A DNA stretch of 64,000 nucleotides, from NCBI RefSeq assembly GCF_009601705.1, contig NZ_CP045687.1, positions 1,834,001 through 1,898,000 on the forward strand. The letters are read 5' to 3'. Both the position numbers and the translations under genes were made by a program. Position 1 is the first letter of the stretch; each line of letters begins with the position of its first letter. Below are positions 51,146 through 56,858 of the stretch, piece after piece. This stretch comes from Sulfolobus sp. E5-1-F (GTDB taxonomy: Archaea > Thermoproteota > Thermoprotei_A > Sulfolobales > Sulfolobaceae). The notes beneath the pieces were generated by a model. The model was not told the origin of the DNA and ran no database searches. It saw nothing but the letters and a program-made list of their open reading frames with translations.

Positions 51146-52024
51146 TTACGAACTCATCGTACTCCAGAATACCTTAGCACCCTCATTATTTGGTTCAGAT
51201 ATAAAACCACCAAATCTTGAAATTAATTCCTCACCCTCCCTTTTAGAACTAACAAATGTATAGACAGCAGGACCGAAGGAGGAAAGACCCGCGGGAAAAC
51301 CAACCCTAGCCATATCCTTCATAAGTTTTCTGACCTTATCAGCTTGTAAAGAGACTTCAACCTTCTTAAATCCCAAATTTTGGATTAATGAGATCGCTTC
51401 TAGTGCCCCTTCTAAATCCCTTTCTGCAACTGACGGGATTAACTCCATTAAGACTACCCTCGCTAAAATGTCTAATCCCTCTAACTTAGCCTCCTTAAAT
51501 GCCTTAATTTCATCATTGCCAAATATTCTTTTACCATCCTTAGGTATATTAACGTAGATGTACCAAGGAAAATTTAGCCTTGCTATTAATGGAGGGGGAG
51601 GAGCGGAGGAGAAATCTGACGGCAATAGCTCCTTTTTTACTTTAATGGAGTGCCCACCATCTACTATAAAACCCCCGTAATCGAAGGCATAAACGCCGAC
51701 TCCGGATGTGCCACCTCTTTTTACCAATTTGGCTAGCTCGTACGAGTTAAGTCTCTTAAAATTATATTCAGCAGCTAGCTTAGCCACTGATAACAAATAT
51801 TGTGTAGTGTGACCAAGTCCTACATGTTCGTCAAAGTCTTCCTCTATACATATTTTAGGGACCTCAAATGGTAAAGACACTTCAGGCTCGAAACAATTAC
51901 CACTCCTAACCACTATCTTAGGATATTTTAAGGCAACTCCTACCCCGCCATCAATTCTGCCGTATTTCCCCTCAAGGTCAAACAACGTGATGTGAATGCG
52001 TGAAAGCCCAATGATCCTTATCAT
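51146..52024 (-). CDS. Beta-ribofuranosylaminobenzene 5'-phosphate synthase-like (GHMP superfamily)
   Basis: The family joins PRPP with 4-aminobenzoate, releasing CO2, in the first dedicated step of tetrahydromethanopterin-type C1 carriers; Sulfolobus uses a related pterin. The 292 residues show the family start (LSRIHITLFDLEGKYGRIDGG), GLGHTTQYLL, RGGTSGVGVYAFDYGGFIVDGGH, and a proline stretch in SSAPPPPLI. It heads a leftward operon with the RNA methyltransferase, gamma-CA and radical SAM genes. GTP cyclohydrolase I lies 5 kb away. Confidence 0.86.
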   Translation of the reverse strand: MIRIIGLSRIHITLFDLEGKYGRIDGGVGVALKYPKIVVRSGNCFEPEVSLPFEVPKICIEEDFDEHVGLGHTTQYLLSVAKLAAEYNFKRLNSYELAKLVKRGGTSGVGVYAFDYGGFIVDGGHSIKVKKELLPSDFSSAPPPPLIARLNFPWYIYVNIPKDGKRIFGNDEIKAFKEAKLEGLDILARVVLMELIPSVAERDLEGALEAISLIQNLGFKKVEVSLQADKVRKLMKDMARVGFPAGLSSFGPAVYTFVSSKREGEELISRFGGFISEPNNEGAKVFWSTMSS

Positions 52025-52060
52025 AAGAATTAATAAGATTGTGTGATAAAAAAGGAAACT

Positions 52061-53419
52061 ATGAGTCTAGCAACATTACTTTATAAATGGTATAAAGAAA
52101 CTCCTTCAAAGACCTTTCTAATCGATAAAAGCCAAGCAGTTACTTACGAACAAGCTGCTAGAGAAGTAGCATACGTTGCTTCTAATATCTCACCTGGAGA
52201 TACTGTAGTTCATCTAATGTTCAATTCTCTACAGTCAATAATAAACTACTTGGCAGTATATTGGGCAGGGGGAAAGGTAGTTGCAGTTGATCCGCTAACT
52301 TCAGCCGAAGATTTAAAGTTCATTTTAGAGGACTCAAGCCCTGACCTAATAATAACTGACGAGGAGATATATAAGAGAGAATACGATGTGCTAAAATCGT
52401 ATAAGGTTATAGTTAACAAGAAAGGAAAAGAGATTTTTGTAAAACCATATGAGTATAGAGAGGATGAGGTAGGCCTAATTTACTATTATGCTGGAATAGC
52501 AGGGAGAACGATGCAAGTATTGCATAGTGCTACTAGGGTTGAGCTTAACTCCGCAACAGTCTACAATGTAATTAACCTTAAAGAGATTAGGGGGATACTA
52601 ACAGTTCCTATAGCTCACGTCTTAGGAAATAGCGTATTAGGTGTTACCTTGGAAGCTGGAGGCACGTTATACGTTATGAGTAAATTTAACGTTGATGAAG
52701 CAATTGAAAGTATAAATAAATATAACATTAACTATCTATCAACTGTTCCAACTGTTTACGATTACTTAAATAACGAGGAGAAAAGGAAATTAGATAGTTT
52801 AGAATTATGTGTAAGCTCTGCTGCACCATTATTTCCATCAACCGTAAATATCTTTAAGACTAAATACGGAAAAGATATCGTTCAACAGTATGGCTTTACT
52901 GAGGGTTTAATTCTAACTTTCCAACCCAAGGAACTAGCTGGGGTAATTTCAATAGGAAAGCCCTTGCCTGGCGTTGAAATAAAGATAGTGGATAACGAGG
53001 GCAAAGAGAGTAATGAAGGTGAATTGTGGGTTAAGGCTCCTTGGCTCATGTTAGGATATAAGGATAGAGAGGAGACAGTTAAAGTGTTTAGTGAGGGATG
53101 GCTAAGAACAGGTGATTTAGTTAGGATTGATGAGAAAGGTTTACTGTATTTTAGAGGAATTAAAAAGAGGATGCTAAAATTTAAGGGATATCCGATATTT
53201 CCAAGAGACTTAGAAGAAGTTTTGAAAACTCATCCACTCGTTGAAAACGTAAAAGTTATAGGAGAGGACGCTGGAAATTTAGGGCAACAACCTGTTGCCT
53301 TAGTTAAGGTGAAGGAGCCGAAGACCGGAATAGAGGACGAATTACTTAATTATGTAAATTCTAGGGTAGCTTTTTATAAGAGATTAAAGAAAGTTTATGT
53401 GGTAGATAAGATTGAGTGA
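52061..53419 (+). CDS. ANL-superfamily (acyl-CoA synthetase-like) protein lacking key catalytic motifs
   Basis: A 452-residue protein from the ATG at 52061, 26 bp after a taataagatt box; a GTG at 52043 is the only alternative. The fold is clear: QQYGFTEG (A5), GELWVKAPWLMLGY, GWLRTGDL (A7), FRGIKKRMLKFKGYPIFP (A8). But the phosphate loop that should read like YTSGTTGxPK is YYYAGIAGRTMQ, without its lysine. The C-terminus also ends at VDKIE, before the A10 Pro-x-x-x-Gly-Lys lysine needed for adenylation. It may bind rather than activate an acid, or act with a partner. It overlaps the thioredoxin start by 8 nt. Confidence 0.8.
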   Translation: MSLATLLYKWYKETPSKTFLIDKSQAVTYEQAAREVAYVASNISPGDTVVHLMFNSLQSIINYLAVYWAGGKVVAVDPLTSAEDLKFILEDSSPDLIITDEEIYKREYDVLKSYKVIVNKKGKEIFVKPYEYREDEVGLIYYYAGIAGRTMQVLHSATRVELNSATVYNVINLKEIRGILTVPIAHVLGNSVLGVTLEAGGTLYVMSKFNVDEAIESINKYNINYLSTVPTVYDYLNNEEKRKLDSLELCVSSAAPLFPSTVNIFKTKYGKDIVQQYGFTEGLILTFQPKELAGVISIGKPLPGVEIKIVDNEGKESNEGELWVKAPWLMLGYKDREETVKVFSEGWLRTGDLVRIDEKGLLYFRGIKKRMLKFKGYPIFPRDLEEVLKTHPLVENVKVIGEDAGNLGQQPVALVKVKEPKTGIEDELLNYVNSRVAFYKRLKKVYVVDKIE

Positions 53420-53813
53420 AATTGACTCATTAATTAAGGAAGTTGCTGAAAGGCTACAAAAGAAGGGTGAAGAATATGGTAAAAAGAAGGAGGACGTTAC
53501 CTTAGTCTTAACTGAAGAGAACTTCGATGAAGTAATTAAAAATAATAAGTTAGTTTTAGTAGATTGTTGGGCTGAATGGTGTGCTCCATGCCATCTTTAT
53601 GAACCAATTTACAAAAAAGTTGCTGAAAAATATAAGGGTAAAGCCGTTTTTGGAAGATTAAATGTTGATGAAAATCAAAAGATTGCAGATAAGTATAGCG
53701 TACTTAATATACCTACTACGTTAATTTTTGTTAATGGCCAATTAGTGGATTCTTTAGTTGGCGCTGTTGATGAAGATACTTTAGAGAGTACTATAAATAA
53801 ATACTTAGAATGA
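53412..53813 (+). CDS. Thioredoxin
   Basis: A 133-residue thioredoxin with active site WAEWCAPCH (about residues 52-60), followed by the cis-proline in NIPTTLIF and the usual VGAVDEDTLE end. An N-terminal helical extension of about 30 residues (lysine- and glutamate-rich) precedes the fold. It starts at a TTG overlapping the ANL protein gene and ends overlapping the ABC ATPase start by 4 nt, so it is coupled to both. Confidence 0.93.
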   Translation: MSEIDSLIKEVAERLQKKGEEYGKKKEDVTLVLTEENFDEVIKNNKLVLVDCWAEWCAPCHLYEPIYKKVAEKYKGKAVFGRLNVDENQKIADKYSVLNIPTTLIFVNGQLVDSLVGAVDEDTLESTINKYLE

Positions 53814-54418
53814 TTGAGGTATATGCAAAAAAGAAATTGCAAGATTTTTTGTTAAATGTTAACTTCTCTGAAAAAGGAATAATTGCAATTACAGGTAAAA
53901 ACGGTAGTGGGAAAAGCACATTACTAAAGATGATTGCCGGAATTCTAAGACCAGATGAAGGGTACGTTAAATTAAATGACATAGATATTACACATTTACC
54001 CATTAATAAGAGAAACGTTGTATTAGTGACTCCAGAAAGTTATATTCCCACATTAGACTTAAAGAAACATCTGAAATGGGGGGCTAAACTAAAGGGAAGA
54101 AAAGTAGATGATAAAGAAATAATGGAGTTAGCTAAATTGCTCGAAGTTCCCAATGAGAATAAAAAAGTAGGCAATTTGAGCTTAGGAAATAAGGAGAAAG
54201 TCTCATTAGCTACAGCCATTTTAGCAAAACCTAATTTAATTTTAGTTGATGAGGGATTCAGTAATATCTCGGAAAAGGAACATTTTATTAACATTTATAT
54301 CGATTTATGTAAAAAGAATCAAATAGAACTAATTTATGTTACTCAAGATGTTGAAGATGTTAAATTTTCCGATCATCATTACGTGATGAAAAATGGATCT
54401 CTACATAAAGTTTTTTAA
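53810..54418 (+). CDS. ABC-type ATPase without adjacent permease
   Basis: A 202-residue ATP-binding cassette: Walker A GKNGSGKST (about residues 29-37), a Q-loop replaced by TPESYIP, signature LSLGNKEKVSLATA, Walker B LILVDEGFS with the catalytic Glu, and a switch region TQDVEDV in which the usual His is Gln. No membrane partner is within the operon or nearby. The substitutions suggest a non-standard or regulatory ATPase. Translationally coupled to thioredoxin. Confidence 0.82.
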   Translation: MIEVYAKKKLQDFLLNVNFSEKGIIAITGKNGSGKSTLLKMIAGILRPDEGYVKLNDIDITHLPINKRNVVLVTPESYIPTLDLKKHLKWGAKLKGRKVDDKEIMELAKLLEVPNENKKVGNLSLGNKEKVSLATAILAKPNLILVDEGFSNISEKEHFINIYIDLCKKNQIELIYVTQDVEDVKFSDHHYVMKNGSLHKVF

Positions 54419-54540: not shown

Positions 54541-55956
54541 ATGCCAAGTACAGCAGAAGATGTAATCAAATTCCTAAAGGAAAATAACATAAAGTGGGTA
54601 GATCTACAATTTACAGATGTTCCTGGAAGACTACATCATATTACAATTCCTGCTAGCGACTTTGATTTGGAATCTTTAAAAACAGGCTTCGGCAAATTAG
54701 ATGGAAGTAGTATAAGGGGATTCACAAGTATCTATGAAAGTGATATGGTACTACTACCAGTACCAGAAACCATGACGTTAGTTCCTTGGTCTCCTGGAGT
54801 AGCTAGAGTATTATGTAAGGTTTTCTGGGGAGGAGGAAAAGGAAGATTTGAAAGAGATCCTAGATTCATAGCTGAGGAAGCTGAGAAATATCAAGCAGAA
54901 CAAGGTTATACCTCTTACTATGGTCCAGAATTAGAGTTCTTCATGTTCGATAAGGTAAAATTAGACGTAAGTACACCACAGTCTGGAACTGGATATAAAA
55001 TTTATGCAAGAGAGGCTCCGTGGAGCGATAGTGGAACCTTTGTAATAAGATTCAAAGAGGGATATTACCCAGCACCACCAGTTGATCAATTAATGGATGT
55101 AAGAGTAGAGATCGTTGAGACTTTAGTTAAATACTTTGGATACACAATAGAGGCTACACATCACGAAGTTGCAACTGCAGGACAAAGTGAAATAGACTTC
55201 AGATTCTCCACTCTCGTAGATACTGCAGATAAGGTTCAAACTCTGAAGTATGTAGCTAAAAACATTGCTGCAAAACACGGATTAGTAGTAACTTTCATGC
55301 CAAAACCTATTTATGGTGATAATGGAACTGGTATGCATACACATCTTAGTTTATGGACTAAGGACGGAAAGAAGAATTTAATGTATGATCCTAATGAAGA
55401 ATATGCAGAGATTAGCCAATTTGGAAGATATGTAATCGGAGGCCTTTTAACACATGCTAGAGCTTTATCAGCAATAGTGTCTCCTACTGTAAATAGTTAT
55501 AGAAGGTTAATACCAGGATTTGAAGCACCAGTATACATAGCGTGGAGTAAGGGGAACAGAAGCGCTGTAGTTAGAGTACCAGCATATTACAAAGGAATGG
55601 AGAAAGCTAAAAGAATAGAGTACAGACCTCCAGATCCTTCAACTAATCCATATTTAGCATTTGCTGCATTATTAATGGCTGCATTAGATGGTGTGAACAA
55701 GAAAATAGATCCAGGAGATCCAGTGGATGAGAATATATATCACCTAACTCCAGAGAGGAGAAAACAATTAGGAATAAGAGAGCTACCTAGATCATTAGAC
55801 GAAGCTTTAGACGAGTTAGAAAGTGATAAAGAGTTCTTAAAGCCGGTATTTAACTCGTCATTGTTAGATACTTATATAGATTTAAAGAGAGATGAGGCAC
55901 GAAGTTTACAAGGTTATCCGCACCCAATGGAGTTGTACTATTATCTAGATTCTTAA
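54541..55956 (+). CDS. glnA: Glutamine synthetase type I
   Basis: Makes glutamine from glutamate, ammonia and ATP; a dodecamer. The 471 residues carry [11 protein letters not shown] with the first metal ligands, the [16 protein letters not shown] region, [30 protein letters not shown] and the [17 protein letters not shown] block. The usual adenylylation loop Tyr region near the C-terminus reads [14 protein letters not shown] and lacks the bacterial NLYDLP sequence. Promoter with leaderless start. A possible regulator (HTH/solute-binding fusion) ends head-on at its stop. Confidence 0.96.
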
Positions 55957-56858
55957 ATTGGTACAAAAATACCAGTATTTTTTAATGTATTTTTAAACTC
56001 ATTAAGATCAAGGTAGTAGTCGAATTCATAATTTTTTGATGCCTCTTTTAGAATATTATAGTCGATATTAAGTAAGTTTGAATAGCTTGAAATCCATCTA
56101 TCCATAGAAGACTTAAACCAACTAAATGACTCCTCATAAATACCCCTTATTTTCTCCCAATCCATATTATCCCTTACTGCTAATGTACAACAATGTAATG
56201 GCGTAAATCTGTGTACCTTATACCCCTTCCTCTCTAAAATTGACAAAAAGGGTTCCCAAATTGCTATACCATCCACTACCCCTTTTTCAAGAAAGTCCAA
56301 CATTTGATATGAACTATAGGATGGAATGATCTCAATATTCCTAAATTCCCTAAATGCCCACATTTCCATACTTGACATCACAGTCGATGCAATTCTAGTG
56401 CAAGTTTTGCCTATAATTCCACCTCCTCCTTTAGCACCTCCTCCAATAATTCTTATATTACGATATATTGTTAAAAATATCATTTGCGTTATTATTGGTG
56501 ATAGACCCAAATCTAACTTAGCTTCGACTAAATCTTTAGTTAAATCAATCCCATTTTCATAAATTTTAACAGTAACATTATATCCCCTATTTTCCAGATT
56601 TTTAATAAACGGAATTATGAACGGATACTCTGCAGCTCTTATAATTCCTAACCTTAAGAATCTATCTTGAGATAAACTCACTTCTAGGTTTTTTCCTAAA
56701 ACCTTCCTTCTCTTTATTATACCTTCTTTCTCTAGTTCGGATAAGACTTCAGATAATCTACTCTTCGATAATCCAGAAAGTTTACCTAGTTCGCTTTGAG
56801 GTAGAGAACCTTTTTCCTTCAAGATAGATATAACTTTATCTTTACTGTTCATTAACAA
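55953..56858 (-). CDS. Winged-helix regulator fused to a periplasmic-binding-like domain
   Basis: The 301 residues begin with a winged-helix DNA-binding domain (about 4-62: [20 protein letters not shown], then [10 protein letters not shown]). The rest (about 70-301) resembles the nitrate/sulfonate/taurine substrate-binding proteins (NMT1/SsuA type), with [16 protein letters not shown] at the start, [12 protein letters not shown] in the middle and [10 protein letters not shown], a motif of that fold. No signal peptide is present, so it is a cytoplasmic ligand-sensing regulator. Ligand unknown. It converges on glnA with a 4-nt overlap. Confidence 0.78.

Follow-up and report, generated by a model that had tools for sequence, protein, structure and literature searches.

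A clade of ANL-fold proteins in Thermoproteota with a retained adenosine site and a degenerate ATP-activating site

The window analysed here, a 64,000-nucleotide stretch of the 2.54 Mb chromosome of Sulfolobus sp. E5-1-F (NCBI RefSeq assembly GCF_009601705.1, contig NZ_CP045687.1, positions 1,834,001 to 1,898,000 of the forward strand), carries a gene for a protein of the ANL fold, the fold of a textbook superfamily of two-step enzymes, followed by genes for a thioredoxin and an ABC ATPase. The ANL open reading frame (ORF) runs from 52061 to 53419 on the + strand, with an alternative GTG start possible just upstream, at 52043. The thioredoxin ORF (53412..53813, +) begins with a TTG codon at 53412 and overlaps the ANL ORF by 8 bp, and the ABC ORF (53810..54418, +) overlaps that of the thioredoxin by 4 bp; both overlaps had been pointed out by an earlier sequence-only reading of the window and are as it described them.

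The 452-amino-acid (aa) ANL protein matches the Pfam domains AMP-binding (PF00501; 9e-49) and AMP-binding_C above their cut-offs, whilst its best NCBIfam names are coenzyme A (CoA) ligases, all below cut-off. Using the motif names A1–A10 in the way we take them to apply to this protein, its A3 phosphate loop (residues 141–152) reads YYYAGIAGRTMQ, its A8 region (364–385) is altered, and the chain stops ahead of any A10 SGK motif. The AMP-binding_C match spans profile positions 2–69 of 76: judged by this profile, only a final C-terminal stretch is missing and the C-terminal domain itself is present. The idea that a separately encoded C-terminal domain, for which the sequence-only reading had proposed a check, supplies A10 was rejected; just the last profile positions are absent, and none of the 68 clade sequences introduced below (0/68) carries [STA]GK in its last 45 residues. 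A pseudogene or assembly error was also rejected, as the 34 Sulfolobaceae family matches are listed without internal stops (0/34) and the ratio of non-synonymous to synonymous substitution rates (dN/dS) of the orthologue, compared with that of two congeners, is 0.076 against genome G146 and 0.092 against G136 (the synonymous rate being saturated against G050). The window ANL protein is thus real, intact and under purifying selection.

The substitutions are not peculiar to the window. A degenerate loop and truncation are common to all 21 Sulfolobaceae sequences aligned (21/21, two of them paralogues of 64% identity), and this loop type and early stop are found again in relatives from other families of the order, at ~40% identity. 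For a wider comparison, 68 clade rows (66 distinct sequences) were set against 27 canonical ANL rows; 47 of the 68 had entered the tree through an A8 pattern, such that the A8 counts, the loss of its Arg included, are partly by construction, whereas those for A3, A5, A7 and A10 are unaffected by this route of admission. The Mg-coordinating Thr of A3, present in 27/27 canonical rows, is Tyr in 68/68 clade rows; the second Thr (canonical 27/27) is Ile or Val in 68/68, and the third (canonical 27/27) is Ala, Val or Ile across the clade and Thr in 0/68. The A3 Lys is found in 0/68 rows as against 27/27, and the A8 Arg in 0/68 (Val, Ile, Leu or Met standing in its place; partly by construction) as against 27/27. 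At the A10 Lys (27/27 canonical) there is a gap in 66/68 clade rows, with unrelated longer tails in the remaining two, L112 and L176. By contrast, the Glu of A5 (YG.(T/S)E), the Gly of A6 and the Asp of A7 are each retained in 68/68 clade and 27/27 canonical rows. New residues have become near-invariant in turn: a loop Arg or Lys (68/68), a loop Thr (68/68) and an A8 K-R (68/68), with the loop pattern [YFH]Y[AS]G[IV][AVI]G[RK]T fitting 67/68 rows, L157 being the exception. A basic pair in the C-terminal lobe, R441/K443 of the window protein, is found in 65/68 clade rows and in 1/14 and 3/13 rows of two canonical groups, and aligns with the I454R/A456K positions of a MenE double mutant, a change reportedly made to improve CoA binding. 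Of the observations in the sequence-only reading, the loop without Lys and the C-terminus ending before the A10 lysine therefore recur through the clade, and its intact A5 and A7 stand, but its intact A8 does not, the Arg being replaced in every clade row.

Published work indicates what such losses may mean. Five residues are given as invariant among the 374 class I enzymes surveyed in PMC6122825—Glu328, Gly384, Asp418, Arg433 and Lys524—which we took as A5, A6, A7, A8 and A10, the equation of Gly384 with the A6 Gly being our own assignment; the clade retains three of the five (A5, A6, A7) and is without two (the A8 Arg and A10 Lys). In a FadD13 study (PMC2793005), mutation of the A10 Lys costs ~95% of activity, and that of the A3 Lys raises the Km for ATP 10-fold whilst lowering the Km for CoA 3.5-fold; a mutant table for aryl-CoA ligases (PMC8388817) lists losses of 4- to 2,000-fold within A3 and of 100-fold for the A8 Arg. 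Because the A3, A8 and A10 residues are gone, and because mutants there damage ATP use or activity in FadD13 and the aryl-CoA ligases, it is very likely that adenylation activity has been lost in the clade. Compared with class I ANL enzymes, its members thus have the fold, with AMP-binding and AMP-binding_C, and A5/A6/A7, but neither the A8 Arg, the A10 Lys nor the Thr/Ser and Lys of A3.

The clade is spread across Thermoproteota and is not limited to Sulfolobus. A contig scan of one genome per species (84,980 species), using two A8 peptide patterns and hence missing relatives with a different A8, returned 36 loci, the record titles of which name Sulfolobales, Acidilobaceae, Pyrodictiaceae, Desulfurococcales, Thermoproteales, Vulcanisaeta, Pyrobaculum, Caldisphaera, Caldarchaeum and Calditenuaceae. 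In a profile search of 398 genomes of the phylum, a gap separates matches at E ~1e-126 from those at 1e-111, and sequences taken from below it have a canonical A3 loop in 14/14 cases. When the alignment was stripped of the loop and C-terminal columns, a single branch set all 68 clade rows apart, with a support of 100 in the Shimodaira–Hasegawa-like approximate likelihood ratio test (SH-aLRT), in a tree made by a quick method with no bootstrap; by this tree, the odd ANL proteins form one clade. Its nearest canonical rows are archaeal FadD-type acyl-CoA ligases (L181–L194), which share the fold and similar A8 surroundings but differ in having a YT(G/S)GTTG..K loop (14/14), the A8 Arg and an A10 GK (14/14). 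The clade is unnamed in the titles and abstract openings returned by our literature searches, a weak negative given that these covered open-licence papers only. As a separate observation, several ORFs together make up the clade gene in L116, L118, L120, L121, L122 and L123 (Vulcanisaeta, Pyrobaculum and Pyrodictiaceae records), decay and sequencing error not being distinguished.

Outside Sulfolobaceae, the clade gene is often found close to a second ANL gene. Neighbours were counted in 31 of the 33 non-Sulfolobaceae genomes with a match at E ~1e-126 or better, G382 and G466 (five stops) being left out and clade genomes met only in the search of the order (e.g. G021, G038, G047, G055) lying outside the count. 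Another PF00501 gene lies within 6.5 kb, a limit chosen after the distances had been seen, in 25/31 genomes and 12/15 genera, against a chance expectation of 1.9 calculated with rounded genome sizes, and within 1.3 kb in 19/31 genomes. As a baseline, of the remaining ANL genes of these genomes 48/221 (22%) have an ANL neighbour within 6.5 kb, counted with split-gene fragment rows merged and three rows (two of G037, one of G054) dropped; undoing this could raise the figure to at most 52/224. These companions are of several types, most neighbours being named by eye apart from those checked by Pfam or NCBIfam. One is an acetate-CoA-ligase-like protein with intact YYTSGTTG and LPKTKSGK motifs (the name, for the partner in L156, being an NCBIfam match below cut-off), whose gene overlaps the clade gene by 4 bp in L155, L156 and L180 and by 1 bp in L153, and lies 12 to 19 bp from it in L157, L158 and L159; a FadD11-like ligase, so named from an NCBIfam match below cut-off, is encoded within a branched-chain-type ABC transporter cluster; and in L100 and L101 PaaK-like ligases flank the clade gene. 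Hot-dog thioesterase, thiolase, 3HCDH/ECH, OB-fold/zinc-ribbon and CoA-transferase III genes also occur nearby (Pfam in L087, L173 and L154; the rest by eye). Within Sulfolobaceae, a paralogue, at the two loci examined (L082 5135–10584, L087 1713–7183), clusters with a PaaX-type regulator, a hot-dog thioesterase and another ANL gene, the last carrying YTSGTTG and SGK motifs and comprising two ORFs in L087.

Some further neighbours are recorded here as side observations. The L082 and L087 clusters also hold a lipoate-ligase-like ORF, with the hot-dog thioesterase 8–11 bp downstream, and lipoate-protein-ligase-like genes lie near the clade ANL gene at L173 6133–7257 (Pfam LplA-B_cat), L175 5817–6926 and L082 7811–8902 (by eye), in what are two different Sulfolobaceae contexts; methylmalonyl-CoA mutase-like ORFs, named by eye, lie near clade genes at L160 1196–3314 and L176 2980–4350.

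Returning to the Sulfolobaceae locus, the ANL orthologue was found in 27 of 31 genomes of the family, with the thioredoxin gene directly adjacent in 27/27; it is missing in G032 and G042, both of which carry another, more remotely related clade member, and G125 and G481 gave no ANL match at E 1e-120. The link between ANL protein and thioredoxin is thus real within Sulfolobaceae. The thioredoxin is of the TrxA-1 type (PDB 3tco, TrxA-1, 1.7e-69), has CAPC as its CxxC motif and clears the equivalog cut-off of TIGR01068 (9.4e-31; 106 bits against 96.8). Its alignment shows a conserved N-terminal extension of ~25 residues (window 53412–53486), also present in L076 and L077, where there is no ANL gene, and which therefore need not be an ANL docking element. 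In the ANL-less L075, L076 and L077, thioredoxin and ABC genes stay between the same two neighbours as in the window, both of which lie outside the proposed mechanism: a divergent upstream beta-RFAP synthase family gene (51146..52024, −; TIGR00144 2.5e-71, and synteny) and, as conserved downstream neighbour, a type I glutamine synthetase gene, glnA (54541..55956, +; TIGR00653 2.3e-176). At L075 6968–7975 (G125) the thioredoxin and ABC proteins are strongly diverged, at 40% and 36% identity. Beyond glnA, the window protein at 55953–56858 appears by eye to join a winged-helix-like N-terminus to a binding-protein-like region; it adjoins glnA and folE in the examined glnA-holding Sulfolobaceae loci, except five of genus g3.

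The ABC ATPase is WtpC/ModC-like. Its top NCBIfam match is WtpC (101.2 bits, short of the cut-off of 440) and in the PDB it matches the molybdate/tungstate ATPase 2onk best; it departs from these ATPases in its length (202 aa against a 347-position model) and in the Gln of its H-loop. Walker A, signature and Walker B are present in the alignment of 22 orthologues, and the H-loop Gln noted by the sequence-only reading (VTQD) is borne out in 21 of them, the L075 protein of G125 having His; it is an unusual but conserved detail. The same reading had the ABC gene without a permease. Whilst there is none among the listed ORFs of the window stretch, the ABC gene, present in 29/31 Sulfolobaceae genomes and adjoining the thioredoxin gene in 24, lies within ~1.3 kb of a WtpB-like permease gene in five of the 29 (G078, G119, G131, G141, G476), where it is away from the ANL locus; in L079 and L086 a WtpA-matching gene adjoins that of the permease. 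In the other 24/29, the window's genome included, it is not near such a permease. A WtpB-like permease, one each, is nevertheless encoded in 30/31 genomes: that of the window's own genome lies at 1.377 Mb, is 65% identical to that of G078 and has a binding-protein-like ORF adjacent, with no ATPase gene in the 10 kb read around it. L201 has, ~3 kb from its permease gene, a small ABC-type ORF that is not this ABC gene. On the simplest view, based on these matches and neighbours, the ABC protein and the WtpAB-like proteins most likely make up one transporter, the window ATPase probably serving components encoded elsewhere. The ABC protein as a partner of the ANL protein was rejected in favour of this WtpAB link.

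The AlphaFold model of the window ANL protein (predicted local distance difference test score, pLDDT, 91.3) has the ANL fold, with fold matches covering its full length. Over 441–452 residues it superposes at 2.5 Å on the MenE double-mutant complexes and on 4CL carrying AMP and CoA (5bsr), whereas the ATP-bound 4fut and 4gxr fit over ~388 residues only and 3c5e at 9.5 Å; we take 5x8f and 5bsr to be thioester-forming conformers. MenE (o-succinylbenzoate-CoA ligase; PDB 5x8f/5buq) is also the best PDB match by sequence (1.4e-45) and the best Foldseek match (27% identity), but the protein scores 184.5 bits on TIGR01923 against a cut-off of 330, and where MenE has the loop SGTTGK..K it has AGIAGRTM. 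A role in quinone biosynthesis, considered on account of the MenE similarity, was rejected, a single literature search on it having given no support.

The ANL fold kept without its ATP-activating residues fits reuse for another step, as the sequence-only reading had thought, and would suit a protein that deals with acyl-adenylate, AMP or CoA but makes no adenylates. We tentatively favour, over a catalytically dead regulatory partner, a non-adenylating CoA-ligase relative that carries out the second half-reaction in support of complete ligases: the activation parts are gone and the gene is often beside an intact ligase, which together suggest a half reaction or assistance to a complete enzyme. 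In outline, the adenosine pocket (A5, A6, A7), CoA-ligase fold and basic C-terminal lobe would have been kept whilst the residues holding Mg-ATP and driving acyl-AMP formation were lost, leaving as putative activity acyl-AMP + CoA -> acyl-CoA + AMP only. The adenylates, made or leaked, would come from the complete ANL ligases encoded beside most non-Sulfolobaceae members; the Sulfolobaceae orthologue, beside thioredoxin and glnA, would work in trans, its partner being encoded by one of the 17 further ANL genes that exceed the Pfam cut-off in the window's own genome. The closest known precedent, by analogy of function and with no claim that the clade belongs to its type, would be PtmA2 of platensimycin biosynthesis, a non-adenylating acyl-CoA ligase (PDB 5upq/5ups/5upt) of ANL structure and a sequence relative of the window protein (E 9e-21), which according to a review (PMC6594144) performs the nucleophilic-addition half whilst PtmA1 performs the adenylation; the pair is the sole natural separation of the two steps that our literature searches turned up. 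The clade has lost residues needed for adenylation, as would befit a PtmA2-like function. PtmA2, a 525-residue chain, belongs to a bacterial natural-product pathway, whereas clade members come from archaea, lie within clusters of acyl-CoA genes and stop short of A10.

Several points weigh against the second-half-reaction proposal. The partner ligases look complete, such that a separate enzyme for the second half seems unnecessary, and the diversity of these partners (acetate-CoA-ligase-like, FadD11-like, PaaK-like) would favour a general helper over a substrate-specific enzyme. The nearest PF00501 gene in the window's own genome is more than 300 kb away, and six of the 31 genomes (G006, G017, G018, G037, G046, G062; 3/15 genera) have no ANL neighbour within 6.5 kb. 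Canonical 4CL has a similar basic stretch or pair in the R441/K443 region; the model of a canonical relative, run as a control, also gives a better full-length fit to CoA-bound than to ATP-bound 4CL; and CoA-bound 3gpc fits the window model at 9.4 Å only. Because of the last two results the conformer match carries no mechanistic weight, and we dropped the argument from a CoA-bound conformer. It is quite possible, if doubtful, that the clade protein is instead a catalytically dead partner able to bind AMP, CoA or acyl-CoA, whose role would be to regulate or stabilise a complete ANL ligase, perhaps in a heterodimer: the pairing with several ligase types, including the pairs overlapping by 4 bp, would suit this, as would adenosine residues retained where catalytic ones are lost and the strong conservation of the altered A8 lobe (partly by construction in the later sets). 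Such a partner is harder to reconcile with the lack of a ligase near the window gene and within 6.5 kb in the six genomes, and with the failure of tblastn with the window ANL protein to detect one in the 14-kb triplet loci.

The remaining explanations are less probable. Adenylation may persist through a rewired site in which the loop Arg149/Thr150 and the A8 Lys/Arg cluster replace the usual residues, the near-invariance of these new residues suggesting a site under selection (A8 partly by construction); we consider this improbable, as several separate ATP-handling positions are gone together, among them two of the five residues given as invariant in the survey of 374 enzymes (PMC6122825). Nor do we give much credence to some other CoA-thioester reaction, e.g. 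the reverse cleavage of acyl-CoA with AMP, CoA transfer or thioester hydrolysis, which the hot-dog thioesterase, CoA-transferase III and thiolase genes nearby might recall but which no family match suggests, no search having been aimed at reaction-specific motifs. The module of ANL protein, thioredoxin and ABC ATPase, redox- or ATP-linked, that the sequence-only reading had built on the fold's reuse is unlikely, and as an explanation of the ANL protein we rate it lowest. The overlapping genes and the unbroken adjacency of ANL and thioredoxin genes speak for it, yet thioredoxin and ABC persist without the ANL gene, the ABC gene sits beside a WtpB-like permease in five genomes and the trio is not kept there. 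No thioredoxin relative appeared at E 1e-5 in any of 57 loci of other clade members (54 outside Sulfolobaceae, three with the second Sulfolobaceae type; 49 longer than 8 kb), 21 of which hold ABC-type ATPases, mostly in branched-chain-type transporter clusters in the loci inspected. The failed association counts against the trio, not against ANL and thioredoxin within Sulfolobaceae.

For annotation the clade is a warning, in that a protein can exceed both Pfam cut-offs of the ANL fold and draw CoA ligases as its best NCBIfam names, yet be unlikely to adenylate. Its members have lost several ATP-handling sites together, kept the adenosine site and often adjoin ligases, and so provide many natural and thermostable proteins with which to test how the two half-reactions might be divided or regulated. 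It is conceivable, though on balance rather unlikely, that thermophilic Thermoproteota harbour an ancient ANL family that lost its adenylation half once and whose members have since served, beside several complete ligases, as dedicated acyl-AMP:CoA acyltransferases or adenylate-rescue subunits.

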